Assembly: GCA_964036045.1 (NCBI GenBank)
Contig: OZ038398.1
Coordinates: 25,674,109-25,738,108 of the forward strand
Direction of reading: 5' to 3'
Source of the DNA: Eutreptiella sp. 'Long Island Sound 2002'
Taxonomy: Eukaryota > Euglenozoa > Euglenophyceae > Eutreptiales > Eutreptiaceae
Length of the DNA stretch: 64,000 nt
Positions 7,943-54,772 of this stretch are shown in pieces (the stretch's first letter is position 1; each line of letters begins with the position of its first letter). A program made the position numbers and the translations under genes. Below the pieces are notes generated by a model. The model searched no databases and was not told the origin of the DNA. It was given only the letters and a program-made list of their open reading frames with translations.

Positions 7943-8234
7943 TCAAATTCAGGGTGTTTGAATGAAACTTGTCAGATGCCTACTGTCTGGCGACAGTGGC
8001 ATCTGGTGGAACCCATCTTCTAAATCGAAAATGGAATGGAATGGAATCCAAACAATAGGAAACCATTCTCTGATATTGGGAGGGGGAAGTTTTTAAGCCC
8101 ATTGGCAAAACCTGCCATTCAAACTTCATTCAAATTCAGGGTGTTTGAATGAAACTTGGCAGATGCCTACTGTCTGGCGACAGTGGCATCTGGTGGAACC
8201 CATCTTCTAAATCGAAAATGCTCCACAGGGCATT
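7861..8234. repeat. 187-bp tandem duplication inside the reverse transcriptase
   Basis: Sequence beginning ccaaacaataggaaacc at 7861 recurs at 8048 with a shift of exactly 187 bp and near identity. It duplicates the junction between the two RT halves and disrupts the frame. It occurs only in the first of the three larger repeat units. Confidence 0.8.
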
Positions 8235-11089: not shown

Positions 11090-11342
11090 TCAGGGTGTTT
11101 GAATGAAACTTGGCAGATGCCTACTGTCTGGCGACAGTGGCATCTGGTGGAACCCATCTTCTAAATCGAAAATGCTCCACAGGGCATTCTTCCCCTCCTC
11201 CACTATGCGATCCTCTATTATTGGGATCGGATATGTAATATTTTCTATGTTGTCATTCAGGTGCCTGTAATCTATCACGAGCCTCCATTTTCCCCCCGGC
11301 TTAGGAACCACAAAGGCTCTGGCAATCCACAGAGGATTACCT
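11090..11342 (-). pseudogene. Ty3/gypsy reverse transcriptase fragment (repeat unit 3, truncated)
   Basis: The third copy retains only about 73 codons around PKPGGKWRLVIDYRHLN and FDLEDGFHQMPLSPDS. It stops at about 11342, where it is fused to a second copy of a segment (ctccaggactgcctcaca) also present at 9349 and 10826. Confidence 0.8.
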
Positions 11343-11344
11343 TT

Positions 11345-20200: not shown

Positions 20201-20222
20201 TGGAGTCGTGTGCCAGCGCCAG
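18786..20222 (-). pseudogene. PLP-dependent decarboxylase (copy B), frameshifted
   Basis: This near-identical duplicate of copy A is offset by about 1,909 bp. The PLP lysine is encoded at 19971-19973. At 19232-19239 a 4-bp tandem duplication (cactcact, versus cact in copy A at 17327) creates an immediate stop after RRRQ and separates the PLP-binding half (19236-20222) from the C-terminal half (18786-19219). Copy B follows directly on the KR-like end of the PKS in another frame, and the two frames overlap by about 50 bp (20237-20285). A PKS-decarboxylase fusion broken by a frameshift, an intron, or an adjacent gene are all possible. Homology between the copies starts near SKDASVSLTENT. Confidence 0.7.
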
Positions 20223-23200: not shown

Positions 23201-23243
23201 CCTTGCAAGCTGCAAGGCTGCAGCCTTGGCAGCAGACGTGTCT
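20237..23243 (-). CDS. Type I PKS segment: ACP - ACP - DH-like - KR-like
   Basis: Numbering follows the 1,063-residue open frame that starts at 23428. Its first 61 residues derive from the LINE 3' end, and true PKS starts at about 63. Two nearly identical acyl carrier proteins lie at about 148-241 and 259-352, each with GLDSLSMVEM (phosphopantetheine Ser196 and Ser307). A DH-like domain covers about 369-650. Its HxxxGxxxxP site reads DFRVRDVPVVPG, so the catalytic His is Phe400, and no Asp is seen at the second site. A KR-like domain covers about 800-1010, with the nucleotide motif GGLGYLG (807-813), Lys902 and Ser926, but the Tyr of the YxxxN motif is Asp939. DH and KR are therefore probably inactive or structural. 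No AT or KS is present. It continues the KS-HMGS-ECH protein interrupted by the LINE. Confidence 0.85.
23227..23243. repeat. 17-bp target-site duplication, LINE 3' side
   Basis: tggcagcagacgtgtct is repeated exactly at 30847-30863 on the other side of the LINE. An eight-T run directly after it is the short poly(A) tail of the minus-strand element. The uninterrupted site is seen in the paralogue at about 40798-40814. Confidence 0.92.
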
Positions 23244-23634
23244 TTTTTTTGCACTGAACGGCGCCTTTTGTGGCTGGCCAGGCCGGGGAGAAAGGCTCTT
23301 GCGCGCCAAGCTTTTTTGGGGAGGGGCGGGAGCCCGAAATCAAGTTCAATCGCGGGCTGAGTACCGCTGCACGTTGCTGTCCTCGTCTGCTTCATCTCAA
23401 AGAGACTTGGCAGCCCCGTTATAGACAACCGCAGGCCGGGGTCTCCGCTTGATACCCGAAGGCGGTGTGGTTGCGGATTGGGGGTTAGAGCATGACGGCT
23501 GGAGCACGGGGGGTGGCTTGGGGGAGGGATTCATTTGCAGAAGTGACTGGTGAGTGCCAGTGTGGTAGTACTGATTGATCGCGCCGCTAGGGCTGTCGAG
23601 GGTCGGCGTGAGAAAATGTGTAAGTGTGGCTTTT

Positions 23635-26600
23635 TCAAAGAGATGACACGTTGGACGAGTGTGAGGACGATTGTGAGTTTGTACTCGCGGGGGAGGGGGG
23701 GGCTGGTGCGAAGTACCTTGTTATGCGAGGAGAAGGGGCGGAAATGGGGGCGGAGGCGGCGAGGGGGGGTGCTGGTCTAGGGGGGGGGGGGAGGTTGAAC
23801 ATGTCCCTGATTGTGAGCGGCCGTTTGGGGGGCGGAGGCTCTGGCTGGGGTTGACTTGCGGTACCGCGTTTCAGTGATAGAGGCCGGACGGGCCTTGGGG
23901 GCTGGCGGCCGTGTTTTCGAGTTTTGGTGTGTGCCGCAGGAGATGGGGGGCGGGGGCGTTTTGGGGGCTTGTGTGCAACTTTGTCCGGGAGGGGGGGGGG
24001 AGGGTGGTAGGCGGGGGGGGGGCGTTGTTGGGCGGTGTGCGACGTGCTGTAGGGCGACCAGGGGCGTCCCCATGAGTTGGGGCCCGTAGGGGGGGTGAGC
24101 GGGGCTGGGGGGGGGTGGTCTTTTAGCCATTCCAGCGTGCGGTATAGGGCGCTGAGGAGCAGGGGAACACGATCCTTCAGGGCGAGTTTTAAGTCGTGAC
24201 AGTGTGCTGGTTTTCTTCGGCCGGAGGGGGGGGTTGTGAGTTTGGTGTACAGCGTCATGGGAACAAGCCCCCGGACGAAATTGCGTCTCTCCCCCACGTG
24301 TGTGGTCGCGGACCACCATTGGGACACCACCGTGGTGAAGGGGGGGCGCCAGCATTGAATGTAGGATTGGACCAGGTGTTCGCACGTTGGGCAGTGTGAG
24401 ACGAAAGAGATAACATCCATCGGGTGCGGGTCGGGGCAAGCGTGGCAATGGCGAGGGCGCAAGTCGTCATGGAAAGCAAATGGCGCCATGTTGAAATTTC
24501 CGGAGGACCATTTGAAAGGGAGGCCTTTGAACCACGAAGTGTGATTGTAAAAATGGAAGCTGGACGGTGCGTGGATGTTTTCGTGTTTGTGGCGAGGGAG
24601 GAGATGCTTGATTGAGGTTGTAGTCAATTTCTGTATGACTGGGAGGGGGCCCCTGGATATGCACCCTATCGGGGGGGGGGGAAGGAGGGAGGGGTCCCAG
24701 ACCATCACGTGGGCGGCCCACTTTGAGTAAGCATCTGAGATTTCATTCCCCACGAACCCGGCGTGCCCCTTGATCCACCCCCAACCCTGGATCATCCCTG
24801 GGCGTAGGGAGGCCTGAATGGACTGGAGAGAGGATTCCCACGTGCCGGCTGGCGAGCGTGATGGGAGGCCTGGGGGGGTGTTCGGAGAGAGAACAGTGAT
24901 AACGTGGAGGTTGTCCCCTAGCACGGCGAAGGTGAGGTGCGGGTGAGATGCAAGGGCCCACCGTAGGAACATAATAGCGGCCCAGAACTCCGATCCCTCT
25001 GATGAACGGTACGGGGACGTTTGGCACAGTACCCATCTGGAGCCATTTGGAAAAAACAGGGAGGCCGCCGACCCGTAGCCCAAGGCGCCCGCTGAGCCAT
25101 CCAAGTACACCCATGTCGTGCCGGGGGACGATGCGAGGAGGAGGGCAAGGGCTGCTTCACAACCCCATTCTTCGAGGTCGTCGGGGTCAAGGGAGTGAGG
25201 TTCATCTGGGAGCCGGTACAGCTCGCCATGCAGTGACGAGTCGAGTAGGACCCCGCCGTATGGCCCGGGGGGGGGGTTGAGGATGTATTCTTGAGGGTGA
25301 AGAAGGGGGGGGGTGAGCAGTTCGTGGCGCCCCGCCAGTTGAGGGAGGACAGAAATGGCTGGGTTTTGAAAGGTGTATTCTTTCTCGTTACGGCGGAGAC
25401 CGGGGTTTTTGATGGTGTGGGTGGTGCCGTCCGAAAACTGGAGTGTGGCCGATTCTGTATGCGGTCCCCATTCTCTGATCGATAGAGGAGGTCGTCAACA
25501 AAGGCGTGGCCCGATTCGTGTGGGGAGGGGGGTGCAGTGACGTGGGACGGCAAGGCGAAGAGGAGCACATTCAGGTAGAGGCAGAAAAGGATTGGTGACA
25601 TGGGGCATCCTTGCCGAACGCCTCTGGTTTGCAGGTGTGAGGAGTGGGTTTGACCTGACACCACTGGGAAGTCGCGAGGGGCACGGTACAAGGATTGAAT
25701 GAGGTTTACGAGGGGCGTAGGAAAGTTCAGGCGGGACAGAACTGTGAAGAGGGTGGTGTGGGGGACGGAGTTAAAAGCCTTATTGAAATCAATGTAGAGG
25801 CTGTAGCTACCGACCGATTCCCGAAACGTGGATAAGAGGTTGAAAATGTGGTCCTGGCATCTGCGGTTCGGAAGCCCGCCGAACTGGGTGGGGTGTATGA
25901 TGGAATGTTCAATGGCCGCTGCCAGTAGCTCTCGATTGGCGTGTGTTGCAATTATTTTGTAAACGCTGTTCAGCAAGGCTATAGGCCTGTAATTTACCGG
26001 GTTCATCACGTCCCCTTTCTTAAAAAGCAAGATAATGTTGGCTTCGAGCCATTTCTCGGGCAACGGCCGGTGGAGGTAGTAGTTGCATACCTTCCAAATG
26101 AATTGTTGGATAGGGGGGGGGGAGACGTGCAAAGTGTAGTTGTTGGTGAAGTCCCGCCCCCCCGCCTTGTTGGGCTTGGACCTCTTAAGCGTGTTGCGTA
26201 ACGATTCCCAGGTAATGTCAGGGAGGAGGCCGTGTTTTGTGGGTTCGGGGCAGGCGGGGGAGTGTGCGAGTAGGCGATCCACTAGAGTGTTCGGCGGTGC
26301 GTATTCGAGGCTGCCCCCCAGGGTGAGGAGTGTAGAAGAGAAAATAGAGCCCACTTCTTTGGGGGTGGAGACGAGCTGTGTGGTGCCCGGGCGCTTCAGC
26401 GTTATTTCACCTCGTTCCACGGGGTTGAGCGCCTCGTTGATGGTGCGTTTGATCCTAGTTTTCCTCACTAGGCACCGATGGATTTTGGTGGTTGCGGCCT
26501 TGTTCACTTTGGTTTCCCACTCCTTGACGAGTTTGTTGAGCGTGTCCATGGAAGCGGGGTAGTTGGGATGGCTGGGGGGGGGCAGGGTTTGCAGGGACTC

Positions 26601-27695
26601 TTTGATTTTCTTTACCAGAGCCGAGGAGGTAGGGCGTGACGGCGTGGTGATACTGTGGTAGCTGGTCGCCACTTCCTCCAGCACGACGTCTGTGAAAAGC
26701 TCGATGTCCGCCGAGGACAAGGACTCAAAGCGGGGGAGGGTAGACTCGCACCACCGCGCCAGGGGGGCAAGGGAGTCGTGGTGCTTGGAGCGTTCCCGCT
26801 CCGTCAGTATTCGGAAAACTTTCCTCTTAGTTGTGGGAGCTTCGGTAAAAGGGTGAGGGGGGACTTGAGAGGTGTACGTGACTGGGTGGTGGTCTGACGT
26901 TTTGTCGTCGGTTTGGATGGTTGCAGAGGTGGGGGCAAAAAATTCCGAGGCCGCCGGGGAGAGCAAAATATGGTCAAGGCGGCTACTGCTTGCCCTGTAC
27001 GGGGTGGGGTATCGGGAGAAGGACCGCTCGGTCGGGTGAAAGTGCCGAAAGGTATCGATGAGGCGCGGCGGGTCGCTCGTGATCTGTCTGCGAAGCCACG
27101 GCCATTCGTTGTCCGTTTGGAGGTTCGATCCGTCTAGTTCAGGGCACATTATGCAATTGGTGTCCCCACCGAGGACGTGGTTAGGATACTGATGCATGAG
27201 TGGCCGTAGGATGTTTTCAATTTTTGAGCGGTGGACGTCCGTGCTTGGGGCGTATACCGAGACCAGCAAGGTGGGCGGGGCCCCCGGGAGAGTGAGAACG
27301 GCTGCCGCCAGCATCCCTTCTGTATCTAGTCGGGGAAGGGGGGTAACGAAGCGGGAGAGCCGGGGGGAACAGACCAAGACGGAACCATGCTCGCCTCTGG
27401 AGTGTTTGTCTTGGCTGATATTCGAAACGATGGTGGCTTTAGTGCCCGAACCGTAGGCGTATACGTGGGGGAGGATGGGGGCGTGATTGATTTCTTGGAG
27501 GAAGAGGATGTCGAAGTCGTTCTTGAGGTGTCGGAGAATTTGGCTGCTCACTATGGGTTTCTTCTGCAAGTTGTGGGATAGAAAACGCAGTTCTGAAGGG
27601 AGGGGTATGGGGGGGCGGTGAGGCCGTTGGTAACCCTTCCGTAGGCGCGTTTTGGATCTCGGGGGGGGCGGGATAGGGGGGGGCTGGGGGGGCAC
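23635..27695 (-). pseudogene. LINE ORF2: AP endonuclease - reverse transcriptase - RNase H, one frameshift
   Basis: The first frame (27695-24918) has an AP-like endonuclease (LQEINHA, VYAPSTD, GGDTNC, SSRLDHIL, SDHHPV) and a non-LTR reverse transcriptase (NYRPIALLNSVYKI, YIDFNKAFNSV, GVRQGCPMSPILF, catalytic FVDDLL). Just after FVDDLLYRSE, near 25460-25490, coding shifts to the frame that includes 25110-23635. That frame contains a complete RNase H with YLDGSAG, the Glu of SEFWAA, GDN and the Asp of GNEISD. A proline-rich tail carries LTIRDMFN and RITRYFAP, which resemble PCNA-binding boxes. No ATG was found for the start, so the 5' end is uncertain. The single frameshift may be real decay or a sequence error. 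Confidence 0.85.
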
Positions 27696-27912
27696 TGGGG
27701 AGCCGGGCTGGCTGGGCTGGCTAAGGCAAAGAAAGTGCTGAATTTGGTCGGCCGGTATCCCGGCCGAGGTGAGCTCGTCGTCTAGTCCCTTGCCTGTGAT
27801 GGTGGAAGCCGTGACTGGGCCGGTGGTTCACTGAATCTTGGCCCTTTTGTGTTCAGGTAGAGGGGGCTGGACAGTGCAGGAGGCGGGTACCCGGCCCTCT
27901 GGCTTTCGTGGG

Positions 27913-30624
27913 TTAGCTTGCCTGTGGTATGTGTCGGAGGATTAGAGCGAGGCGAGGGACGGTACGAGGGACGGTTAGCCCAAACACTTCGTCTTCTCTC
28001 CGTCGAGGTATACCGTGGTGCCACTCATGGCGTGCGGCCCCCGTGAGGACCAGGAGAGAGCGGGCAAACAGGCGGATGCGAAAGGAGTCCCCGTTGGAGG
28101 GGTTCTTAAAGAACATTGTGGTGTCCGATTGGGAACCAAAAATGGACACTGGGTCGCCTAGCAAGGGGTCGTCCCCGTGGTAGCCGATGCCCTCTCCCGG
28201 GAGATACATTGTGCCCGTGATTTGGTTGGGAGGAGGGTGTGAGAGGCCTAGCCGCTCCAGCGCGGCATTGTAGGTTTGGAGGATGGAGGAAAACTCTTCC
28301 GGGATGGGGGACGTGGCGGCGACTTTGCTCGGGCCGAGGTATGCGTGGCCGAAGTGTTGGACTGAGCGCCCGTGGTACTTCTCCCACGTGTTGTCGTGGA
28401 GAATCTTTTTTACCGTTTCCTCTTGGCTTTCGGAGAATACGTCGCGGACGTAATAAAAACCAGCGGGGAGGCGGGGGTCGATTTGAATATCCGAGGCGGG
28501 GGTGGGGGCACCGTGGTCGGGGGGTAGGAGGGTGGTCGCCTCGCCTCCTAGTGGAGCAAGCAGCGGGACGCTGGTCTCGGACATCTCTTCGATGCGGCTT
28601 GGTCCCGGCGTTGGCGTAGCGGCGCCGGCGTCCTCCGGTGCCGCGTTCCACTCGCTGATGCGCTCAGTCAGCCCCGTAGCGGGCCTTTCACGAAGGGCGG
28701 TGACAAGTTGGGACACGAAGGCCGTGGACCCCAAGGCGGCTCCCGCTTGGAGGCGCTGCACTATGGGTTGTTCGTGCTCGGCCACATCCGGGTCTTGAGC
28801 GGGGAGGATCTTCTCGAGGGCGATGAGGTTTCGGTGTAGTGGGGCAAAGGCAGCGTCTCCATATTTGAAATCATGCGCTAGCAGCGCGGATTCCCCCTTT
28901 TCGTAGACCACGAGGTAGGCTTGTTGGTGTTCGTAGGGAGGCCGTGTGGGCTCGAACGACACGTACGGGCCAAGAAACCCCGCTTGGACGCGCAAGTCGA
29001 GAGCGTGCGCCGATCTTGGGGCCACTAGGAGCACGGCGGTCTTCGGGGCCTTAGATGAGTCGTATGAGGGCGGGGCCGGCGTCGCGTGGGCTCGCTCGGG
29101 GGCGCCCGAAGGCGCGGACCTCGCGTTGCCGTCGGATCGTGACGAGAACCGCACTAATTGCCCATCTATGCCATGAAAGAGGACAATGCCGCATGAGTGG
29201 AAGAAGCGGATAGCTAACGTTTGGACACCGGTCTTCATGACGTCGCACGGCGCGTGAGTGGTGTCAATCGCCACGACCAAGGAATCTTTAGACCGGAACA
29301 TCGCTCCTAGGGGCGGTGAGGCGCCCCGTCCACCGGGCAGGTTGGCGATCATCATGGTGAGCATTTCCGGAGCTTGTAGGTCTTTGTTTCTTTCCTTTCG
29401 GTCCCTAGCGATCACGGCTCGATACACTTCGGTAGTCGGCAAAGCGTGCATGTCCATTGCAAGGAGTTCTCCGGTGAGGAATTGGGCGCACTCTCGGACC
29501 TTAAACATGAGCTCGTCGGCAAAGCGAGATGGGAGTTCCCAATCAAACCGGTAGTAGGCCCAATGCGGGCTCTCGGAAGGGACTATGTGGCCAAACGGGT
29601 AGTAGGCATTTTTGGTGTTCACCGATACGTTTGCTAGCGCGGGGACAAACATTTCGTTCATTAACTTCATGAAAGCACGGGCGTCTCCAATTTTGCGTTG
29701 CCTTGGTTTAGTTTTATCTCTCTCTTCCGGCGGCGAAGGCTCAATGTGATCAAGGAATTCTATGCTCACCTCAAAACGTAGTGTTTTGTGCAACCGGAGG
29801 TCTCGCACCGTTGGATGGGCGTGCTTGGCGGCGAAGCGGAAAGGTTCAAACTTAAAATTGATGTCTTCATATCGGCACCCGTCAAAGGAAGAGGTGTTTA
29901 GGAGCAAGGCAACATACGGCATCGTTTGATGGCCGCTCGTGCGGAACTCGTAGGAGTCTTTGCCGTCCCTTTTGACCTTGTAGGCGTCCCGGAGTTGCGC
30001 CCCGTGCATACATATCACGCTAGAAATGTACGGAAGAAGAGGAAAAAGGGCGGAAGTTGAGCCTAGCATGCGAAAGGTGGCGGCAACCACTTGAGCGTCC
30101 CACGCCGGAATAACGAACCATCCTTTGAGGTCTTTGTTCTCTTCTTTGGCTTTATCTAGCACGGTTCTTAATTGTTTAGCCCACGGGGTGGCGGTGGGTG
30201 GAGACTCCTTGGCTTCGGCTTGGGAATAGTCCAACTCATACGGCTTTAGGTAGAAACGCTTGTGCTTGAACAAAAGCTTTTCGAGCTCGTTGTAGTTATT
30301 GTGCGCAACGGAAGAGACCCTACCTCGATCTAGAATTTCCGTGGAGTTGCTCCCAACGAAGGCGGATTGAATATCGGTGCCTTCCACATCCAGGTAAAAC
30401 TCGGAGTAGTCTTGTAGTCGGCGGTAGACTTCGGGAACGAAAATGCGTTGGCGTGTGTCAAATATTTTGCCTTCAATGGCTTCAAGTTGGCGTGACGGAA
30501 AGCGTGTTTGCAACGGCGAATTTGAGGCTTGGTGTTTTTGAAAGAGGTGTGACGGAGAATAGTTGAATAGCGTTGAAAGGCCATCATCGGCGGCTTTGGA
30601 GCTTCCAAATAGGGTGAAATTCAT
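27913..30624 (-). CDS. LINE ORF1 protein with C-terminal AlkB-like 2OG-Fe(II) dioxygenase
   Basis: I chose the ATG at 30624 (MNFTLFGSSK), which gives 903 residues; the frame is open upstream to 30768 without an ATG. The N-terminal three quarters match no domain I recognise. The last about 190 residues form an AlkB-type oxygenase: the opening FYYVRDVFSE, the metal site in YLPGEGIGYHGDD (His and Asp), SLLVLTGAARHEWHHGIP supplying the distal His, and RLALILR supplying the 2-oxoglutarate-binding Arg. Known AlkB proteins oxidatively remove methyl groups from nucleic acid bases, so repair or protection of element RNA or cDNA is a reasonable inference. It lies between the LINE target-site duplications and is therefore part of the element, not a host gene. 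Confidence 0.82.
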   Translation of the reverse strand: MNFTLFGSSKAADDGLSTLFNYSPSHLFQKHQASNSPLQTRFPSRQLEAIEGKIFDTRQRIFVPEVYRRLQDYSEFYLDVEGTDIQSAFVGSNSTEILDRGRVSSVAHNNYNELEKLLFKHKRFYLKPYELDYSQAEAKESPPTATPWAKQLRTVLDKAKEENKDLKGWFVIPAWDAQVVAATFRMLGSTSALFPLLPYISSVICMHGAQLRDAYKVKRDGKDSYEFRTSGHQTMPYVALLLNTSSFDGCRYEDINFKFEPFRFAAKHAHPTVRDLRLHKTLRFEVSIEFLDHIEPSPPEERDKTKPRQRKIGDARAFMKLMNEMFVPALANVSVNTKNAYYPFGHIVPSESPHWAYYRFDWELPSRFADELMFKVRECAQFLTGELLAMDMHALPTTEVYRAVIARDRKERNKDLQAPEMLTMMIANLPGGRGASPPLGAMFRSKDSLVVAIDTTHAPCDVMKTGVQTLAIRFFHSCGIVLFHGIDGQLVRFSSRSDGNARSAPSGAPERAHATPAPPSYDSSKAPKTAVLLVAPRSAHALDLRVQAGFLGPYVSFEPTRPPYEHQQAYLVVYEKGESALLAHDFKYGDAAFAPLHRNLIALEKILPAQDPDVAEHEQPIVQRLQAGAALGSTAFVSQLVTALRERPATGLTERISEWNAAPEDAGAATPTPGPSRIEEMSETSVPLLAPLGGEATTLLPPDHGAPTPASDIQIDPRLPAGFYYVRDVFSESQEETVKKILHDNTWEKYHGRSVQHFGHAYLGPSKVAATSPIPEEFSSILQTYNAALERLGLSHPPPNQITGTMYLPGEGIGYHGDDPLLGDPVSIFGSQSDTTMFFKNPSNGDSFRIRLFARSLLVLTGAARHEWHHGIPRRREDEVFGLTVPRTVPRLALILRHIPQAS

Positions 30625-30846
30625 GGTGTTTTCGGGATGAACGAAAAGGTGGCTTGGCGTCAATTGAAAGATTGCGAGCGTGGATTTGAACTCGGGAATT
30701 GAGATGATGATTTGAAAACTGCGGGAAAGGCTCCAGAACTTGAACAGCCCAGGATTTTCTCCAATCACCGAATAGCCTGGACTACTGGTGGATCCATCAA
30801 CAAAATGCTGAGGGTCAATCGAAAAAAAATAGACACTCAGAAAGTG

Positions 30847-30863
30847 TGGCAGCAGACGTGTCT
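30847..30863. repeat. 17-bp target-site duplication, LINE 5' side
   Basis: This is an exact copy of 23227-23243. PKS coding sequence resumes immediately beyond it (tggggctgtcgcg). Confidence 0.92.
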
Positions 30864-33800
30864 GGGGCTGTCGCGTGAACTATCCCGAAAACAAGGCTGT
30901 CCTGTGCCGACATCTGCGAGTCTTCGAGGTACAATCTCATGGCGTTGGCGGATCCAACAGTCAGCGGTGACGACATACTCAGCAGAAACAGCGGATTCCT
31001 TCCCCGTGGAAGATTTCCGAGGTTGAAAATGGTGTCTTCAGAGCACACCCGGAAGTCAGCAGCCAACGCCAGTGCCAAGCCCCCGCCGATGACCTTCCCG
31101 TGCACGGCCGCAATTACAGGCACAGGGAGGCTTCGGATCATAGCAGCTATGCGCTCGCAGCGCATAAGGGCAGTCGCGTCCACTAAAGGGTTTTCAGTGG
31201 AGCTTTCTGTCTGCCAGCCGCCGGTACAGAAGTGGGGACCAGCACCCTGCAGCACCACTGCCCTTACATCTCCGCGCTCAACCAACTGTTGCACCTCAAG
31301 AATGCAGCTCAGAAGATCTCCCAATAGTTTGATGCTCATGGCGTTGAACATGGCTACATCGTTGAGCTCTATGGTGGCCACACCGTCTGACATCGCTAAA
31401 CAAACCAACTTTCGACCGTCGCCCTCCGCGTCCTGCTTGCCCACAACAAGCAGCTGGTCCAGTACCAGGTACGCTTCCTCCGCGCATGCAGCGGGGAGAT
31501 GCTTCTTGCACAGCCGCAGCAGACTCGAATCAAGCTGGCGGAACCGCGCCAGCACAGATTTCACTTCCTGCTCCACATCAACCGTTCTAACCACAGCCTT
31601 GAATCTTGGGTGGAGACGTGCTGGTGGAAGAAGGCTGAAACTGATATTTGCGCTGACAAATGCAAGGTCTGATGCCGCTATCAGCAACAAGACATCTTCA
31701 CCAAGTCGGCTTCCATCGGCCTTTGTGTGTGTATCCGTCACTTCAACTACCACCTGTAGTTCACAGCGCTTCACGCAGTCCACTACCAGCATGACCGCTT
31801 CGATGTCAATCTCTTCGACAATCACTGAGTAGGCTGTGAGGTGCAAAACATGAACAACCGAAGCGGGTTGCATCGCGTCCGAAATCATCTTCGCGGTTTG
31901 CAATGTAATATGACCCCGTACAAACAGGTGGACAACCGATTCCAGCACTTCCACAGACACCATATCGCCGTCCACTCCATGTTGCTCAGTCACTGGTTCC
32001 ACTTTGACGCTCAAAAATCGTGCAGCTGCAATGACGCGCTCTGCATCCTCCTCTCCACTCGCGCCGAGAGCCATCCCTCGAGGAAGGATGCGGAATCCCA
32101 TGCCAGTGAGTCGCAGCTGCTCCTGAACATTCTCATCCACAAATGCCGAAGGATTCTCCACAACATCAGTGATGAGCCTCATCGTGAGCGCTCTCTTCGA
32201 GTCAATCGTGCTCGGTTGCATCTTCAGCCGCTCGGCGGCTGCAGCCCCGATAACTCGTGGAAGAGAATCCGTGGCAGTGAAGACCAGACATGCAGTGATG
32301 GGGTCTGTGAAGTCAAAGGTGGTGCTCTCACTACCAACGCGGACGTCAGAAGCGCACGCAACAAGTGCACCCAGCGCTGAAATCTTGCCAGCAAGGAGGG
32401 TAAAGACTGGCACACGTAGATCTTCCAGACCGCGTTTGAACGCTGCTGCTGCAGCAAAGGCCTGGATTAGTGCAGAGAGTTCCAGGGTAGCAAAGCCCTG
32501 CTCACTCTCTCCGTCCGTTGCGTCAAATACAACTGCTTTAAGGGTCTTAGACTTCTCTTGCAGAACTTGCAGGGCTGTTGGCAGCAAAGCCACCGTAGGC
32601 AGCCTTAACCGAGCAACGCCATCGCACATCCAGTGAATCTCAACGCTGCCAACCGCATGTGAGCCACATGCTTGTCGCATTGCCACGGATATCACTGCCT
32701 CTGAAATACTGCTTCCTACCCATGAGCCCACATCCACGTCATCAACGTGCAAGTCCATAACCCTGTCAATGACACCAACCTTCAGGCCAGCAGTCGCCCA
32801 CATCCCTGCATCGCCGTGGTAGGCTGCAAGGCCGAATCCAGCTGCGCCAAGCTTCCGCACCAGGCATGCCACCAATACTGGTGACAGCTGAGACGTGCGA
32901 AATCTCACATCGGGGGATGCCATCGTCACGTCTGCCGCCAGGGCCAGCAGCATGCTCTTCTCCTCCGTACTGCTGAAATACTGCACGCACACTGCCGGCT
33001 GTGGTCTCAAAAACCATTCAAGCATCGATAGCAGCGCTTCAGTCCCCGCCGCCGTCTCTAGCAGGTCCCCTTTCTCCGTCACATGCACGAAAATTGTCTG
33101 TCCCTCTGCCTGTCTGGAGACAGTCATGAGACGATTGAGCAGTTCATCTGCGGTCATCTTGCTATCTATCACCACCACAGACGTCGAGGCTGCCACGTCA
33201 CCTTTTGGTCCACCCTCTCGCACTTCCTGCATCTCTTGCTGATTCGAGAGGGCTGCGTTGCAAACTGACTTGCGCAAAAGACTTCTCGCAAGAGATACAC
33301 ATCGCAGTGCAATTGCCCCTGCATCTGATTGATGCCGAATCAGACTGAGGGTTGCTCGTACACCATAGGAGGGCGCCGATGCCACTTCTGCTGCCAGATG
33401 CAGCGCCCTGTCGAGTGCAGATGACTCAGAGTTGCATGTCAAGGTGAGTCCCAGCTCACCAGCTCTGTCTTCGTGCACCATCCCTTCATGCTCCCGCAAG
33501 ACTGCTGCCCACTCGCACTCTCCAACAAGTCGTGACATGCTCTCATCCACACCGAACAGTTGGTTCGACTCTGTGCAGGCGTAATTGAAGCGAGCTCCAG
33601 GCTCTGCTACCCTGTAATCTGCGGAAAGCGCGACAGCCAGGCCAGGACCGCAGACCTCCCCGCTCACTACCATGATCACTGGGACCGGAACGCCTGTGAA
33701 CAGCGTTGCATAAGCAGAAGCAACACGATGGAGAGATGATGCAGTTGTGTCTACTTCCAGATCTTCATTGCTACCATTGAGGAGGCGAATCCAGTCCCAC

Positions 33801-36800
33801 AAGCCGACATTCCCTGCAAGGCACACTCTGGATGCGTCCAGCACGATTGCCTTCAGACCATCCGATTCGCTCAGTTTTGGCAAACGCGACCGCAACCCCT
33901 CCACGAGACCCCAGCTCAGGTTGCTTTCCTGAAGTGTATCTGTGAATGAAATCAAACAGATGCCTGGGCTCGGCCAGCTCATCACCACTCCGTCTGAGCT
34001 TTCCACGTTATCCCCATCCTTGCTCAACAGCTTTGCAGCAAGCCTCCCAACCCCGCTTTCCACCACAGCCGTTTCAAGATGCCCATGCGAAGCGACAACT
34101 CGCTTGTACGATTGCAGGAGATGCAGCGGACTCTGCCTGAGGCCGTGAAGAACACGCTCAAGAGCTTCTTCCATTGTCTCACCTGATGTGGTGCCCACAA
34201 TGCCGTCTACAAGGCCGGCAGCCTGCGCCTCCACAGCATTGACTCGGTCTCCCGTCAGCATCCACTTTCGAGACGTTCGACAATCCAGCCGCTTCTGCAA
34301 AGCAACAGAAACAACCGCTGGGAGGACCCCTCTTCTGATCTCTGGTAATCCAAACGAGGCGTCGTCGGTTGCCAGCACGATGTCTGCAATGCCTGGGAAC
34401 AGCATCCCACCCCCTCTTGTTGCGCCGTGACACACCACAATGGTCGGCATGTCGCACTTGGACAGGCACGTCATGAGGTCTCCAAATTTTGGAACTTTAC
34501 TTAGGAAGCTGTTTAGGTCGATTTCGCCGCCCTCAGAACCACCAAGACAGAAGTTGTCGCATGCGCTCGTGATGATGTGCATGCGCCCAGGCTGGATTGC
34601 CTCCAAGATTTCGTCAACGAGCGTCGAGTCAATTGTCTGTTGCATCAGGGTGATTCTCGTAACGTCAACGGCAGAATTGTCGACCTGCACTCCTCTCGAG
34701 GTGTGTTCCTCGTACAGCCGTACCCCTGCTGCGTCCACGCTGCTGAGATAGTAGGCACCACGTTGTCGGTCTGCTGTGTGCGAGGGTGTGAAACCGAAGC
34801 GGCCGTATGTGTCCTCGAAGGCTTGCACGAGTCGCAGTGTTTCGTCAACTGTCTTTGGAACACGTGACCTCAACTCTTCCAATAACCCACAAGGATGTTG
34901 CGGCACGCCACACACACGGATGCCGTAGAGGCTCGCTGCGCAGCCGGAGCCGTAAGAGTAGCACAGCACCCGCTTACCGACTAAGTCCTCTCCCTTCTCC
35001 AACGCCAGCGAGAGGAGGCAGGCATAGAGTGGGCAGGTATACGTCGTAGCATTCTGTGCACTGATGGTTGTACCAGCCTTGGCGTATTGCTCATACAGTG
35101 TGTCACGCTCCTCCTTGTTCAGCTTTCCGCCATAAAGGTGTGTATGTAGCAGAGCTAGACTGCGCTTGGAGTGATATGGGGCATTGCAGTGAAAAACAAC
35201 CATATCATAGAGGGACAGGAGGTCTCTGGTCCCCGCGGCTTCGCTGAAGCTGTCCAGGCAGTAGCGTAGCGCATCCTCGTACTGCTGAGTTGCGCTGTCG
35301 CCATCGAGAAAAGCATCATTGTTGTGCCACCCGATCGGGCGATAGAAGTCCCATGCGTTCTTGATGAACGTCGATTTGTGTGGCTCAATCACCATGGGAG
35401 CCCCGGGACCAATGAGCATGGCAACAGCAGACGCACCGATTTCAGAGAGGTGTGCAGGGTCGGGGTGCACGGCCGCGTTGCTGCAGATGACAACAGCATA
35501 CTTACCATTCCACGAATTGCCGGTGACCCAGTTGATGGCGTTGAACAGGGCGTTCGTGCCACCGTAACATGCATTGTACGTGTCCGTGCCTTGAACATCA
35601 AAAACGCCATGCTCCTCGAACAGCGACATGAGGAATGTCTTGATGGATTTGGCGCGGTCCACCTGGCACTCAGTGCCGACCTCGAGCCGTCCAATGTCGC
35701 TCCACTGCAGCTGGCACCGGTCAACCAGCCGCCGCAGTGCCGACATTGCCATCGAAACAGCATCTTCGTCATCACTGCAAAACGTCACGTTCTCCTGTCC
35801 CCTCCCATTTGTGTACCTCCCAATCTGACCATGAAACTGTTCTATATCAGCAGCCCTCACACACAGTCGAGGGCAATAATACTCAAAGGCAAGAATGCCT
35901 GCATCCTTATTGCACAACTCAGCCGTGGCCTCCACATCTGCATTAGTCTCAAGCCACGGAAACTCTGACCGATGCCAGTCAATCGCAGGCTGAGCCGGTG
36001 CCGCTGTCCCTTCCGGAGCCAGCCCCAACTCGACGTGCGCGTTCGTGCCACCAAACCCGAACGATGACACTCCCGCGTACACCCCTGCCGCCAGTCCAAT
36101 GCTCTCCCGCGGAAACTCGCACATGCACTCCTTCAGCAGCGGCTCCAGCAGCTCATTCAGCCGCTCACAGTGGATGTTGGGCGGCACCAGCCTGTTCTGA
36201 AGGCACAGCACCGCCTTGATCACCCCTGCCATCCCTGCAGCCCCCTCCAGGTGCCCTATGTTGCTCTTCACAGCCCCCACCACGAGAGGTGTCTCTCGCC
36301 CCCTAAAAACGTTCACAAGCGCCCCCACCTCCAGCGGGTCCCCCAGACGCGTCCCCGTTCCGTGAGCCTCCACATACCCCACATCATCGGGTCTGATTCC
36401 CGCCCTCTCCATCGCCCTGCGGATCACTTGCTCTTGGGCAGGACCGTTGGGGGCAGTGAGGGTGGCAGTACGGCCATCCTGATTCACCGCCGACCCATGC
36501 AGCACCCCCCACACCGCGTCGCCATCTTCTGCCGCCTTCGACAGCCGCTTCAGCACCACTGCACCACACCCCTCTCCGCGAGCCATCCCGTCTGCTTCGT
36601 TGGAAAAAGTCGCACACCGACCTCGTGGGGAAAGCATGCCGCCCGCGCTGAGCTTTACGTAGTTGTCCATGGTGAGGTTGAGTTGGACGCCCACTGCAAC
36701 TGCCAGCTCGCAGTCATGGTTACATATGACCTTGCATGCCACATCCATTGCCACCAGTGACGACGAGCACGCCGTGTCAATCGTCAGGGCTGGGCCGTAA

Positions 36801-36932
36801 AGGCCAAACGTGTAAGAGATCCTGGCCGCAGTGATGCTGTTTGCACCTCCAGTCGCCGAGTAGGGCCCCGGAGCTTCTCCTCTCTTCATGAACAAGAAGT
36901 CATTACTCGCTTCACCAACAAATATCCCTGTC
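30864..36932 (-). CDS. PKS beta-branching megasynthase: KS - HMG-CoA synthase-like - six ECH repeats
   Basis: Numbering follows the 2,098-residue frame that opens at 37111; residues before 59 and after 2088 come from the flanking retroelements. KS (59-375) keeps Cys115 (DTACSSS), His250 (EAHGTGT) and His287 (SNIGHLEG). An HMG-CoA-synthase-like domain (about 400-740) keeps Glu481 (EVGTE), Cys515 (NACYGG) and His641 (FHCNAP). Six crotonase/ECH-type repeats follow at about 812-1025, 1040-1250, 1310-1465, 1485-1650, 1716-1860 and 1900-2087. The first (HGATRGGG, FGLPEIRRGVLP) and the last (HGKVIGGGLALALAADF) keep oxyanion-hole glycines, while the middle four are degenerate. In known trans-AT PKSs, HMG synthase and two ECHs add and process a beta-alkyl branch. 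No AT and no ACP lie between KS and HMGS. The KS start is in the exon at 39949-40240, cut off by an LTR element. Confidence 0.88.
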
Positions 36933-36937
36933 ATGCC
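36933..36937. repeat. 5-bp target-site duplication (ATGCC), left
   Basis: atgcc directly before the element terminus tgtaaaacg matches atgcc at 39944-39948 directly after the other terminus. Removing one copy and the element restores the KS reading frame as QDGMTGIFVG. Confidence 0.85.
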
Positions 36938-36978
36938 TGTAAAACGCAAGCACCCAAAAGGCTGCCTTGCATGTTTAC

Positions 36979-37484
36979 ATTTCAAGACCTCCGAGTCTTG
37001 TTTCGGCCAGTACTCAGAATTTTCAAACCTCTCATTTTGAATCTCCTGCAGTCCCATTTTGAAAACCTTGAAACGACGCCCTTCTTGTAATTGCCGCACG
37101 CAATAAATCAAATGAGTTGATCAATCTTGACTTGGTGATACGGAGTGATTCAACAGATAAGCCGTTTCATGGCCTAAACAATAATGGACGCTCAGCACAA
37201 TACATACACTGTAAACATGCTAAAATCCTACAAAATCAGATCTTTTTATAATAAAAATCAGTGCTTCTCAGACAGAAAACAATGCACTCGTCAGTGCGCA
37301 CGCGTGCCCTGCAGTGCCCAAATAGCGGCATCTGCGACGCACCACAGCAAATAACTTATATGGGGCTATGTCATGCACAACAAACAAAAATTAGACATAA
37401 TTGCTGTAATCCTGACCCTGCCAAATGCAGAGGTCCACAGAAGAAACCAACCTTGTTCTGTCCTGTCCTGAGCTTCCCTTTACA
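36979..37484 (-). repeat. LTR-like direct repeat (3' copy)
   Basis: It is offset 2,459 bp from 39438-39943 and practically identical. It begins on the minus strand with tgtaaaggg right after a G-rich polypurine tract. The terminal stretch 36938-36978 completes the putative LTR. Confidence 0.82.
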
Positions 37485-37590
37485 CTCCCCCCCCAAGCCC
37501 ACACATACCCTGATGTGTGGCTGAGACCCCAAAACAAAAGGGTGCGAAGGGTTTTACCATAGGGCTGGGAAAAGCTCAGACAGAGCTGGG

Positions 37591-37635
37591 TGGGTGTAAA
37601 ACGCAAGCACCCAAAAGGCTGCCTTGCATGTTTAC
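37591..37635. repeat. Second copy of the LTR terminus (about 42 bp)
   Basis: tgtaaaacgcaagcacccaa and the following bases to tgtttaca duplicate 36938-36979. Like the 3' LTR, it is preceded on the minus strand by a G-rich purine tract. It may be a remnant of an internally deleted LTR from a nested insertion. Confidence 0.6.
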
Positions 37636-38511
37636 ACTCCCCCCCCAGGCTCAGCACTCCCCAAATGAGTTGCTGACCCGAGAAAAAAAATAGCAAAACA
37701 TGCAGGCCTTTACCTACAATACAATACAGATATTATTGTCTGTGATCTGGCTATTTCTACTCATTCCAGGTAAAAACAGCTACTATCTATGTGCAGATCA
37801 TGCTAGTGGAATACCACTGATACCACAGATAGCTTTACCCTCCTGAAAGGGATTTCTGTCACAAAACAGTGCCCTAGGGAAGTGGTGAAGTGGTGTTTCA
37901 ACCTATACCCACTCAAACTCCTCACAGGGTGTAAAAACCTAATAAGTGCTCATGGCACACAACCTGAAGTGCTCCTGGCACAGATAAAATTTAGTATAAA
38001 AATACTGAAAGAAAACCCCTGCTTTTTCCAACAAAAGCAGAAAAACAAACGGGAAAACCACTCTGCTTTTTCTCCAAGACAGAAGCAGCTGAAAAAGAAA
38101 AAAAGACACACTGCTCACAAGCAGGCAGGTGCAAAGCAAAACAGAATTGCAAAACTGAGTAAACCAGAGTTCACTCAAAGTGTAAAGCAGGGTGTATCCC
38201 ACCACTGCTCATTGCAGATCCAAAATAGTATCTACAACGAAAAAGAAAGCAAAGGCACATGTCAGTGCCAGCAAACAAGGCGCTTGGCGCCCAAGAAGAG
38301 GCCAAAAAAGACCTCGTTGACATACTGAAAATGTACATGCCAGGGAATCTAAATCAGATTCCTGCATATATGCAGCCAAACAGGCTTCACACTGTGCAAG
38401 GCACAGCGGTTGCAAAAAACAAAGCGCTCACAGCGCCAAAGACTGATAACACAGAGCGCTGCAAGCGCTCGACATACGCGCAAGTTACAGAGCGCTCTCA
38501 GCGCTCAAAAC

Positions 38512-39437
38512 CTAAAGGAAAGGGTTGTACTTATCTTCCTTGGAAGCCAAACGCTGGCCCCACTCTGACCGCGGTGGGCAGGAAGTTCGACACCACTTGA
38601 AGGCCTTCTTGTTTTCCACTTTGGAGACCAGAACGTCAACCAGTTCACTGAAGTACTGGGCAGCTCTTCGTCTTTGAACGGCTTTGCCTGCGCGTCGTCC
38701 TCTTCTTGGCTTGCCCTCACTGATGACCTCCTGAGATTGTTCGGCCACCCAATTTCCCAAACCTTTTTCGAAGCTTGTAGAATTCGTCACTCGGTGCTCC
38801 TTTCTTCGTTTCCAGGGCTCTTTTTGTGACCCATCGGCGTTGGCCTCTTCACTTGAGCTGCATCGTGACTCCTTTTGGTCTTGAGTTGACGAACTATTTT
38901 TTGTGGCTCTGAAAGGCGTAGAAGGAAGCGGACTTCTCAACAGCGAGACGATACTTTGTAGTTTGTGCAGCGCAACTTCCAGCGACGACTCCAATTTTGT
39001 AAACACACGTGAATACGCATTGTTCTTCGTCGGCGCTGTCTTTGACTTGTGTGGAACTGCTTTCGTCCTCCACGGCAATTCTTCGCTTTGTACGCCGTGA
39101 ACCACGACCTTGTTGTCGGCGCTACTCAACTGCACCATGAGGGCATGGAAGAGACCTTGAAACTTGTACCCGAAATTCGCATAGAGCTTGGCGAACGTGA
39201 ATTCTTGAGCACACCTCAGCTGTTCCCGCACGCGTCGTTCCTCTCTCTCCAGATCCTGCAGTGACGGCGACCGTGTTGTCCTGGGCGGGGCTGGCGCTGG
39301 TCTGGACGGCGCCTTGATGGTGTCTTGATTGACGGCTCGGCCGGGCCGTAGACTCCTGTGATTGCACTCCTCACTCTTATTGATCTCATCTGCAGCTACA
39401 GGCAAAGGCAAAGAAACGTCGTGTTTATCTGTTGAAT
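38512..39437 (-). CDS. Unknown basic protein inside the LTR-like element
   Basis: The open frame runs from the 5' LTR-like repeat (start near 39570) to 38512, 352 residues in total. It is rich in Arg, Lys and Ser, with a Glu/Arg-rich helical stretch (LEREERRVREQLR), and has no recognised domain. Position and composition would fit a gag-like nucleic-acid-binding product, but this is inference. The first about 44 residues are encoded by the repeat itself and recur at 37111. Confidence 0.4.
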
Positions 39438-39943
39438 ATTTCAAGACCTCCGAGTCTTGTTTCGGCCAGTACTCAGAATTTTCAAACCTCTCATTTTGAA
39501 TCTCCTGCAGTCCCATTTTGAAAACCTTGAAACGACGCCCTTCTTGTAATTGCCGCACGCAATAAATCAAATGAGTTGATCAATCTTGACTTGGTGATAC
39601 GGAGTGATTCAACAGATAAGCCGTTTCATGGCCTAAACAATAATGGACGCTCAGCACAATACATACACTGTAAACATGCTAAAATCCTACAAAATCAGAT
39701 CTTTTTATAATAAAAATCAGTGCTTCTCAGACAGAAAACAATGCACTCGTCAGTGCGCACGCGTGCCCTGCAGTGCCCAAATAGCGGCATCTGCGACGCA
39801 CCACAGCAAATAACTTATATGGGGCTATGTCATGCACAACAAACAAAAATTAGACATAATTGCTGTAATCCTGACCCTGCCAAATGCAGAGGTCCACAGA
39901 AGAAACCAACCTTGTTCTGTCCTGTCCTGAGCTTCCCTTTACA
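39438..39943 (-). repeat. LTR-like direct repeat (5' copy)
   Basis: This is the partner of 36979-37484. It ends at the right target-site duplication and lacks the terminal 41 bp that the other copy has. Confidence 0.82.
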
Positions 39944-39948
39944 ATGCC
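39944..39948. repeat. 5-bp target-site duplication (ATGCC), right
   Basis: This matches 36933-36937. KS N-terminal coding sequence (LEAGQDG on the minus strand) begins here. Confidence 0.85.
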
Positions 39949-40240
39949 ATCCTGTCCTGCCTCCAAACACTTTGCCTGCTCCATCGCCTCGTACGCCACC
40001 TCCAGCGACACCCGCTGCTGCGGATCCATCGCCGTCGCCTCCGCCGCCGAGATCCCAAACCGCCCATTGTCAAAGAGCGCCGCCCCTGTGATGAACGCCC
40101 CCCGATTTGTGCAGCACTTGCCCAACTCCTCCCCTGACCCGTCATACCACTTTCTCCAGTCCATCCTCTCCAGCGGTATCTCCCCCATCCCATCCCCTTT
40201 GCCCTCCAGGAAAGCCCACAACGCCTCTGGGCTCTGGCAT
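39949..40240 (-). CDS. KS N-terminal exon or fragment
   Basis: The frame encodes the start of a ketosynthase: ALWAFLEG, then GISAAEATAMDPQQRVSLEVAYEAMEQAKCLEAGQDG. The DPQQR motif is typical of PKS KS domains. It fits directly onto the KS remainder at 36932 (MTGIFVGEAS) once the LTR-like element and one target-site copy are removed. Upstream it joins an ACP in a different frame because of a G-run (40241-40246) that is one base too long for continuity. Confidence 0.82.
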
Positions 40241-42279
40241 CCCCCCGGGAAGCTGCACCTCCACAGAATCCTCCACCTTCGGGAACAGCCCCGCGTCGAT
40301 GTACTGCACCAGCCCCTCCAGCGTTGGGTAGTCGAATAGCATCGTGCTGCTCAGCTGCAGCGCTTCTCCCAGCTCCCGCTGCAGCGCGTTCCGCATCTCC
40401 ACCATACTCAGCGAGTCGAGCCCCGCCCGGCCCCACTCCTCCTTGTCGGCGAAATCCGTGGACGCACCTACATGCGCCGCTTCGGTGCGGATCTGCTCTC
40501 TGATCACCTTGATCCGGGTCTCTGTGTCCAAGCTCTCCAACCTCTGCACCCACGGAGTTTTTGGGAGGCGGGACATCCCAGCAACTGCTTTCCTTGGCGC
40601 GTCCTGGACCGGAGCAACATGCACGGACGAGACCTTACTTGCCTTTAAAGCGGCGTCAGCCTTCACCCTGCAGCAGTAATGCCACGCCTCACGAGCAGCC
40701 TGAGCCCTCGCCCTGGAGCAGAGCGTGGAGGTATGGCTTGGGTGGTAAGCTTTGGTTGTACCAGCATGTTGCCTTGCAGGCTGCAAGGCTGCAGCCTTGG
40801 CAGCAGACGTGTCTGGGGCTGTCGCGTGAACTATTCCGAAAGCAAGGCTGTCCTGTGCCGACATCTGCGAGTCTTCGAGGTACAATCTCATGGCGTTGGC
40901 GGATCCAACAGTCATCGGTAACGACATACTCAGCAAAAACATCGGATTCCTTCCCCGTGGAAGATTTGCAACGTTGAAAATGGTGTCTTCCGTGCACACC
41001 CGGAAGTCAGCAGCCAACGCCAGTGCCAAGCCCCCGCCGAGGGCCTTCCCGTGCACGGCCGCAATTACAGGCACAGGGAGGCTCATAATTAAGGTACCTA
41101 TGCGCTGGCATAGACGGATAGAAACCAGCGTCTCCGCAAGTGCAGCACGCTGAGATTCCTCAGAAGTGCTATCGGTCCCGGGCTGCCAGCCGCCGGTACA
41201 GAAGTGGGGACCAGCACCCTGCAGCACCACTGCCCTTACATCTCCGCGCTCAACCAACTGTTGCACCTCAAGAATGCAGTCCACAAGCTCTCGATTTAGC
41301 TGAGGAGTCTGAGCGTTAAACGTGGCTACATCGTTGAGCTCTATGGTGGCCACACCATCTGACATCGCTAAACAAACCAACTTTCGACCGTCGCCCTCCG
41401 CGTCCTGCTTGCCCACAACAAGCAGCTGGTCCAGTACCAGGTACGCTTCCTCCGCGCATGCAGCGGGGAGATGCTTCTTGCACAGCCGCAGCAGACTCGA
41501 ATCAAGCTGGCGGAACCGCGCCAGCACAGATTTCACTTCCTGCTCCACATCAACCGTTCTAACCACAGCCTTGAATCTTGGGTGGAGACGTGCTGGTGGA
41601 AGAAGGCTGAAACTGATATTTGCGCTGACAAATGCAAGGTCTGATGCCGCTATCAGCAACAAGACATCTTCACCAAGTCGGCTTCCATCGGCCTTTGTGT
41701 GTGTATCCGTCACTTCAACTACCACCGGTAGTTCACAGCGCTTCACGCAGTCCACTACCAGCATGACCGCTTCGATGTCAATCTCTTCGACAATCACTGA
41801 GTAGGCTGTGAGGTGCAAAACATGAACAACCGAAGCGGGTTGCATCGCGTCCGAAATCATCTTCGCGGTTTGCAATGTAATATGACCCCGTACAAACAGG
41901 TGGACAACCGATTCCAGCACTTCCACAGACACCATATCGCCGTCCACTCCATGTTGCTCAGTCACTGGTTCCACTTTGACGCTCAAAAATCGTGCAGCTG
42001 CAATGACGCGCTCTGCATCCTCCTCTCCACTCGCGCCGAGAGCCATCCCTCGAGGAAGGATGCGGAATCCCATGCCAGTGAGTCGCAGCTGCTCCTGAAC
42101 ATTCTCATCCACAAATGCCGAAGGATTCTCCACAACATCAGTGATGAGCCTCATCGTGAGCGCTCTCTTCGAGTCAATCGTGCTCGGTTGCATCTTCAGC
42201 CGCTCGGCGGCTGCAGCCCCGATAACTCGTGGAAGAGAATCCGTGGCAGTGAAGACCAAACATGTAGTGATGGGGTCTA
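40241..42279 (-). pseudogene. PKS segment: ECH (partial) - ECH - ECH - ACP - start of KS
   Basis: From 42279 down, the protein repeats the end of the six-ECH array (equivalent to 32308-30847) almost residue for residue. It then runs uninterrupted into an ACP (GLDSLSMVEM, Ser627 of the frame opening at 42292) and the first residues of a KS (VQLPGG). It is the previous module of the same assembly line or a tandem duplicate. It lacks the LINE and so preserves the empty insertion site at 40798-40814. The 5' end stops abruptly at about 42279 in the middle of the fourth ECH repeat, where unrelated DNA begins. The frame breaks at the G-run 40241-40246. Confidence 0.82.
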
Positions 42280-54460: not shown

Positions 54461-54772
54461 GGTAAAACTAAAAAAACACAAAGCCAGGGGTGGGGAGGGG
54501 ATGCAGAAATGCAATTCCTAGGGGCACCCCACCGGACGAATCATCCACATTCCCGAGCAAACCCTGCAAAACAAGGCACAAAGCAAAAAACAGTAAAGAA
54601 TGCCAACAAAACCGGAGCAGATGGCTGAGCACGTGCAGAACATGCTGTTGCAGTACACACTACATTACGTGAAGATGATGTAACCCACTTGATGGCGTCA
54701 GGACATGCCACTGTGCAAATGATGCACCAGACACCTTCTTTGTGGAGAAAAAACTTAAACTGAACTTTTGGG

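Follow-up and report, generated by a model that had tools for sequence, protein, structure and literature searches.

Within one stop-free frame, a broken gene of the euglenid Eutreptiella sp. 'Long Island Sound 2002' joins part of a polyketide synthase (PKS) ketosynthase (KS), a HMG-CoA synthase (HMGS) domain and a series of crotonase or enoyl-CoA hydratase (ECH) domains. The frame, of 2098 amino acids (aa), lies on the minus strand of a 64,000-nucleotide stretch of contig OZ038398.1 (C21:25674109-25738108; genome of 2.28 Gb in 2205 contigs), hereafter the window. With a probability of roughly 0.78, we read it as what is left of the central part of an in-line beta-branching module, which belonged to a modular euglenid PKS without acyltransferase (AT) domains, i.e. 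trans-AT-like, and of which the window copy is a pseudogene.

Domain content of the frame

Domains were called with Pfam profiles and with local profiles built from the locus itself, and residues of the frame are counted from position 37111. The frame and its domains are as follows, with the four crotonase-like domains numbered e1 to e4:

30815-37111, minus strand: the open frame, 2098 aa, stop-free (open reading frame list, translation)
36164-36967, minus strand: C-terminal part of the KS, with Cys115, His250 and His287 (Pfam, local profiles, residue check)
34706-35908, minus strand: HMGS domain of eukaryotic (mevalonate) type, with Glu481, Cys515 and His641 (Pfam, NCBIfam, structures, local profiles)
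34193-34651, minus strand: putative ECH1-type crotonase domain e1, Glu kept, motif FGLPEIRRG (local profiles, alignment, tree)
33437-33919, minus strand: crotonase-like domain e2, Glu motif lost (local profiles, alignment)
32156-32593, minus strand: crotonase-like domain e3, Glu motif lost (local profiles, alignment)
30863-31330, minus strand: putative ECH2-type crotonase domain e4, motif FNLGNLPRG, cut by a long interspersed nuclear element (LINE) (local profiles, alignment)

A domain search had been proposed in the first-pass annotation of this DNA, and on the 2098-aa frame Pfam indeed matched the KS (KS_C, E 9.1e-44; KS_N, 5.4e-40), both halves of HMGS (HMG_CoA_synt_N, 2.5e-56; HMG_CoA_synt_C, 1.9e-21) and ECH_1 (9.8e-64). 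The sharing of one stop-free frame by KS, HMGS and crotonase domains is far beyond chance. That annotation had also described an uninterrupted frame with a KS and a complete HMGS domain: its content and the residues Glu481, Cys515 and His641 are exact, and its strand and limits are amended here to minus and 30815-37111. The HMGS domain is complete and the KS is not, its match to the N-terminal profile of 252 positions beginning only at position 116. A plus-strand reading of 30864-36932 was ruled out by its many stops. Pfam ECH_1 gave three scored stretches in the region where the local profiles separated four crotonase-like domains. A tblastn search of phages with the 2098-aa frame returned 39 records and was uninformative, the five listed showing 26-31% identity over 14-18% of the frame.

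The four crotonase-like domains fall into distinct types. In e1 the Glu of the FGxPEIRRG motif is retained, and the ECH tree places this domain with the first ECH of in-line PKSs from algae and bacteria (SH-aLRT 84); e4 has the FNxGNLPRG motif (or close variants) common to the second ECH of bacterial in-line PKSs in the alignment, and the middle domains e2 and e3 are divergent and carry neither motif. The ECH tree was a quick one with long branches, so that its grouping supports, rather than proves, the ECH1 and ECH2 roles; the putative assignment is made by motif and, weakly, by tree.

An intact module would read KS-HMGS-ECH1-degenerate ECH-degenerate ECH-ECH2-ACP-ACP, ACP being acyl carrier protein. 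Its chemistry would be that of the bacterial HMG-CoA synthase (HCS) cassette, performed in one chain: the KS would extend the chain, HMGS would attach an acetyl unit, through its methyl carbon, to the ACP-bound beta-keto group, ECH1 would take off water and ECH2 CO2, and the product would bear a beta-methyl (or exomethylene) branch. This reaction, the source of the acetyl donor and a working ancestor are what we infer from sequence.

Lesions in the window copy

We designate the module of the frame W1, the module upstream of it W2, a neighbouring frame encoding a PKS joined to a nonribosomal peptide synthetase (PKS-NRPS) G1, and a sister copy of W1 G2; coordinates called window-scale continue the window numbering past position 64000. 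The sister copy lies about 66 kb away, beyond G1 (window-scale 102734-112048, 3105 aa), and is ordered MT-ACP-ACP-KS-DH-ACP-KS-HMGS-ECH-ECH by Pfam and local profiles; the DNA of the window copy is 97.6% identical to it over 3.85 kb. A minisatellite (L012, window-scale 100458-102425) with an 85-bp unit, 98-99% self-identical, adjoins the broken end of G2. The AT profile PF00698 found no match in the window frames scanned, in G1 (11,573 aa) or in G2.

The window copy is a pseudogene, and the 2098-aa frame a fragment of a broken gene, because the start of the KS lies out of frame and about 3 kb off and a LINE sits inside the fourth ECH. The features concerned, from upstream to downstream in the direction of the gene, are:

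40814-41302, minus strand: ECH2-type crotonase of upstream module W2 (local HMM, 225 bits; Pfam ECH_1; 80% to e4 of W1)
40298-40477, minus strand: ACP of the upstream module (Pfam, local profiles, residue check)
39931-40257, minus strand: N-terminal part of the KS, out of frame with the preceding ACP (tblastn, 84% to G2 residues 1626-1734; DNA comparison)
36938-39930, no strand: stretch of about 3 kb separating the KS parts and containing a pair of identical 506-bp direct repeats, at 36979-37484 and 39438-39943 (DNA self-comparison)
23244-30846, minus strand: LINE retrotransposon of 7.6 kb within the fourth ECH (self-comparison, domains, target duplication)
20240-23226, minus strand: continuation past the LINE, with the end of the fourth ECH, ACP 22727-22906, ACP 22394-22573, DH 21482-22321 and KR 20522-21028 (Pfam, local profiles)

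The stretch that starts the KS has 467 bases in the window copy against 517 in the sister copy, so that about 50 nt are missing. The 506-bp repeats were considered as long terminal repeats; no matching flanking duplication was seen, and they are kept as direct repeats. The LINE is bounded by a 17-bp target duplication, TGGCAGCAGACGTGTCT, at 23227 and 30847, and encodes ORF1 (27913-30768), with a weak AlkB-like (2OG-Fe(II)) domain, and ORF2 (24918-27695), an endonuclease-reverse transcriptase. The sequences on either side of it, 22703-23243 and 30847-32306, run on from one another in an internal duplicate at 40274-42278, with an overlap of 17 bp. The tandem ACPs of W1 stand downstream, past the LINE, and the one-chain state of the window copy is therefore a reconstruction.

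Recurrence of HMGS and ECH in one chain

A search with the HMGS domain gave 2607 matches among 8000 scored candidates, of which the best 120 were listed. A search with the HMGS and ECH region gave 30 proteins, 22 of which carry both in one chain by local profiles, with HMGS first in 6 and the ECHs first in 16; the other eight comprise seven with HMGS and no ECH and one with ECH and no HMGS. Among the 22, P0121 is the window's own protein, and P0122, at 98% identity to the query, has the layout of the sister copy. The HMGS-ECH order is not a one-off, as it recurs in the sister copy, in two metagenome proteins, P0123 and P0124 (48% within the region matched), and in P0137 (42%). P0123 has HMGS, four ECH-like domains and an ACP, P0137 is built likewise but holds only the last 67 aa of HMGS, and P0124 reads KS-HMGS...ECH-ACP. 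In EukProt, P0138 is a 3433-aa chain running from KS to HMGS, and P0003, labelled Rhodomonas salina, has HMGS followed, by eye, by the start of an ECH.

Bacteria also encode such chains. Two peptide patterns were run against bacterial and archaeal genomes, and five loci out of 68 pattern matches were confirmed, in Rhodospirillales (L039), Alphaproteobacteria (L040), Myxococcales (L041), Candidatus Thiosymbion (L042) and Symploca (L043). ECH-ECH-HMGS stands in one frame at four of the five; in Symploca, HMGS starts in the next, overlapping frame.

Origin of the HMGS domain

The eukaryotic NCBIfam HMGS model TIGR01833 scored the window domain at 307.8 bits, above its cut-off of 286.2, against 131.6 bits for the prokaryotic model, and two free-standing PKS HMGS controls showed the reverse (eukaryotic 131.8 and 115.6, prokaryotic 263.6 and 255.9). 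Relatives scored similarly with TIGR01833 (G2, 295.6; P0001, 297.3; the partial P0002, 286.0, just below the cut-off). Among solved structures, the best match was 2wya, a mitochondrial HMG-CoA synthase that we take to be human HMGCS2 (E 7.9e-73), with PksG at 6.6e-8 and CurD at 6.8e-7.

A first HMGS tree used 50 of 150 proteins; P0147, P0149, ownC7b, P0028 and P0032, all on long branches, were dropped from later trees, in which the HMGS row of L043 is partial. Support for the in-line side was 99/97 in a tree of 55 rows, 32 of which it comprised, and 97/94 in a tree of 60 rows, 37 of which it comprised; the ordinary eukaryotic side had 80/61 and 91/85, respectively, and the algal clade holding the window domain 100/100 in both. 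The in-line side also contains rows with no assigned context, including P0017, a free 435-aa Blastocystis protein. Mean identity to the window HMGS was 60.2% for nine algal in-line domains, 40.7% for 19 bacterial-type in-line domains including EukProt P0138, 35.8% for 17 of eukaryotic mevalonate type (P0148 excluded), 23.5% for three free-standing PKS enzymes and 24.9% for two other bacterial ones. In approximately unbiased (AU) tests, a clade of algal in-line and PksG-type domains was rejected (p-AU 0.002) and one of algal in-line domains and ordinary eukaryotic enzymes was not (p-AU 0.194); the groups were picked after the tree was seen, so these p values are indicative.

On these scores and trees, in-line HMGS domains appear as a clade beside the eukaryotic mevalonate HMGS, far from the PksG type, and this clade also takes in the domains of bacterial one-chain PKSs. 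The phylogeny suggested by the first-pass annotation as a choice between mevalonate-pathway and PksG-type enzymes fell between these alternatives: the domain is of eukaryotic or mevalonate type, not PksG, yet sits in its own, mostly PKS-embedded clade beside the ordinary enzymes. Capture from bacteria of a PksG-type enzyme like those of trans-AT clusters would fit the catalytic residues of the domain and the kinds of its ECH partners; given the opposite behaviour of the PKS controls on the NCBIfam models, the rejected joint clade (with groups chosen post hoc) and the lower mean identity to free-standing PKS enzymes than to eukaryotic ones, we give this almost no credence. In the published work searched on in-line HMGS and algal PKSs, we did not meet this HMGS lineage or its bacterial relatives.

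Weighing the alternatives

Several observations weigh against a beta-branching module. The acetyl-donor part of the bacterial cassette, a decarboxylating KS and a donor ACP, was not recognised at the locus: the window KS keeps its Cys, and no ACP is distinguishable as a dedicated donor. A Trp just after the phosphopantetheine Ser flags the ACPs of bacterial beta-branching, and it occurs in no ACP of this locus, G1, G2 or C7, a second large synthase of this genome. Direct succession of KS and HMGS, which the first-pass annotation had emphasised, is seen in the window frame, the sister copy and P0124; in P0123, however, a DH rather than a KS stands ahead of HMGS, so this neighbourhood is not constant. 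No undisrupted copy of the W1 module was found, since G2 too is cut short, at an inverted stretch next to the minisatellite, and dN/dS between W1 and G2 (0.39 for KS, 0.46 for HMGS, 0.41 for ECH1) suggests only moderate constraint. An in-line beta-branching module of an algal PKS, as first proposed, nonetheless remains the best reading, with ECH1 and ECH2 types after HMGS and tandem ACPs downstream, albeit in a window copy that is disrupted.

The in-line HMGS and ECHs might do other chemistry, such as carboxymethyl branching without decarboxylation or double-bond shifts by the ECHs. The Glu motif has been lost from e2 and e3, the ECH array of G1 sits in a module without an HMGS match, and a bacterial in-line ECH alone does not predict the outcome (accessible part of PMC8739492); ECH1- and ECH2-type motifs are, however, both kept and match those of bacterial in-line cassettes, and we regard a different outcome as unlikely. 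A working gene, in which the 3-kb stretch and the LINE are spliced out as introns to give an active KS-HMGS-ECH synthase, appears more doubtful still. Euglenids do have unusual introns, an acceptor-like stretch, TTTTACAG, stands just ahead of the KS part at about 36938, and the 2098-aa frame has stayed open, but a clean 17-bp target duplication brackets the LINE within coding sequence, the KS start is some 50 nt short with its frame changed relative to G2, and neighbouring G1 runs as one frame over 34.7 kb. Wrong joining of KS, HMGS and ECH in the assembly, which the first-pass annotation had named as a possible refutation, could be suspected at a locus full of near-identical duplications, inverted segments and repeats; with the HMGS-ECH order recurring in G2, P0123, P0124 and P0137, such a chimera is very improbable.

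Neighbouring synthase and other loci of the genome

The C-terminal end of G1 enters the window:

58568-64000, onward to window-scale 93286, minus strand: C-terminal end of G1, with KS end, DH, KR, ACP and hydrolase (Pfam, local profiles)

G1 (L009-L011) is an 11,573-aa single-frame PKS-NRPS. It starts with AprA-type winged-helix and methyltransferase domains, AprA_N itself being under the cut-off, and continues with KS-DH-KR, KS-DH-ER-KR, KS-DH-KR with four ECH-like domains (residues 5529-6391, two of them weak), KS-DH-KR with four ACPs, C-A-PCP, KS-DH-KR and a hydrolase. A profile scan of G1 gave no HMGS match. Internal stretches of G1 are 97.9-99.4% identical in DNA, and C11 holds an 11,534-aa frame with an ECH match scoring equal to that of G1.

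The modules at this locus are AT-less; elsewhere in the genome some AT matches occur in short frames, for instance one of 487 aa on C24, and several AT domains occur in the 14,181-aa frame of C7 (77.35-77.39 Mb, L029-L032), of which 10,976 aa were read. This frame has an undisrupted module, KS-AT-DH-ECHs-HMGS-HMGS'-ACP, in which the HMGS domain is followed by a second, divergent HMGS-like domain (L031). The C7 HMGS is 33.9% identical to that of the window and is thus not its close kin. Two HMGS stretches were also scored in P0147, where they may be one split match. On C3, at 76.28-76.33 Mb, a 16,441-aa open frame also has several AT domains.

The HMGS profile PF01154 has at least 20 matches in the genome. 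C21 and the 14,181-aa frame of C7 hold two each. Another, on the small contig C1589, belongs to a 493-aa frame that resembles an ordinary free enzyme, and 15 lie in frames of 140-298 aa on C6, C19, C4 and C8, several of which have ECH matches within about 10 kb, judged by coordinates alone.

Elsewhere in the window, two recent duplications were seen, 8040-9866 with 9517-11343 (99.3%) and 16795-18295 with 18707-20204 (97.2%), the latter in and beside a frame with an ornithine/arginine decarboxylase domain. The stretch 54747-57186 is tandemly repeated and lies in an AT-rich patch (GC 0.33-0.38).

A LINE family carrying the spliced leader

A second copy of the LINE lies about 90 kb away (window-scale 121131-129586; the two copies are loci L014 and L015). 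The copies are 99.5% and 99.6% identical in two blocks, between which the second is longer by about 850 bp, and their target duplications differ, at 17 bp and 19 bp. Both open with the exact 28-nt euglenid spliced leader, ACACTTTCTGAGTGTCTATTTTTTTTCG in the window copy; the 28-nt leader of Eutreptiella has been reported as 100% identical to that of Euglena gracilis (accessible part of PMC3621762). The LINE thus appears to have been copied from a trans-spliced RNA, and the leader marks the genome as that of a euglenid.

Comparison with known systems

The first-pass annotation had suggested that the fusion might be undescribed, which the literature does not bear out. In the accessible part of PMC7073580, Emiliania modules are reported that combine an HMG-CoA synthase with two enoyl hydratases, their proposed role being addition of a beta methyl, and a figure legend names HCS and ECH for the megasynthases of Euglena gracilis; bacterial one-chain versions stand in databases. 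The word "mevalonate" is absent from the main text of that paper. HMGS genes have been called for in dinoflagellates (accessible part of PMC6835853), in-line ECH domains are reported from bacterial clusters (accessible part of PMC8739492), and the accessible parts of the euglenatide papers PMC9321709 and PMC11703798, and of PMC12455990, contain nothing on HMGS.

We give even odds to a wider reading, in which beta-branching was assembled at least twice: in the PksG lineage of free-standing enzymes, and again when PKSs took up in cis a eukaryote-type (mevalonate-like) HMGS along with an ECH1/ECH2 pair of its own. The in-line cassette would then have passed between protists and bacteria (alpha-, beta- and gammaproteobacteria, Myxococcota and cyanobacteria) in two arrangements, HMGS before the ECHs as in the window and ECHs before HMGS as in C7 and bacteria. 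Two origins are thereby suggested for beta-branching HMGS and, if this holds, the module would be self-contained, needing no docking flag on its ACP. Beta-branching of algal polyketides has been inferred from isotope labelling; the one-chain cassette recurs and its HMGS clade can be recognised, which offers a sequence handle for finding protist modules, and such a module might be movable as a unit.

Like the algal in-line modules (accessible part of PMC7073580), the module at this locus is part of a multimodular PKS whose domains include HMGS and enoyl hydratases, at least two ECHs sharing a chain with HMGS, KS and ACP (for the window copy, the reconstructed chain). Those modules differ in having ATs, with one N-terminal AT in haptophyte synthases and cis-ATs in full E. 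gracilis type I PKSs, whereas this locus has none; the module here has four ECH-like domains, two of them degenerate. We treat the absence of AT as a difference between variants, not as a mark of the kind.

With the bacterial HCS cassette (PksG/H/I, CurD type), this module shares the Cys-Glu-His of HMGS, ECH1- and ECH2-type partners and tandem ACPs. The bacterial enzymes, in contrast, are free-standing, whereas here they would form one chain; the HMGS here is of eukaryotic or mevalonate type; and neither a separate decarboxylating KS or donor ACP nor the Trp flag was seen. From the eukaryotic mevalonate enzyme, with which it shares its best NCBIfam model and best structure, the window domain differs in being fused to a PKS and set apart by a supported branch (99/97; 97/94). 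Bacterial one-chain PKSs ending in ECH-ECH-HMGS, namely P0125 (Burkholderia ubonensis), P0128 (a Dyella metagenome-assembled genome), P0130 (Pseudomonas sp. Q1) and L039-L043, have an HMGS that falls on the in-line side of the tree (38-42% to the window domain, 19 rows) and carry ECH1- and ECH2-type domains in the chain; P0125, P0128 and P0130 differ in having an AT, a reductase domain in some, and the order ACP-ECH-ECH-HMGS, where the Eutreptiella locus reads KS-HMGS-ECHs.

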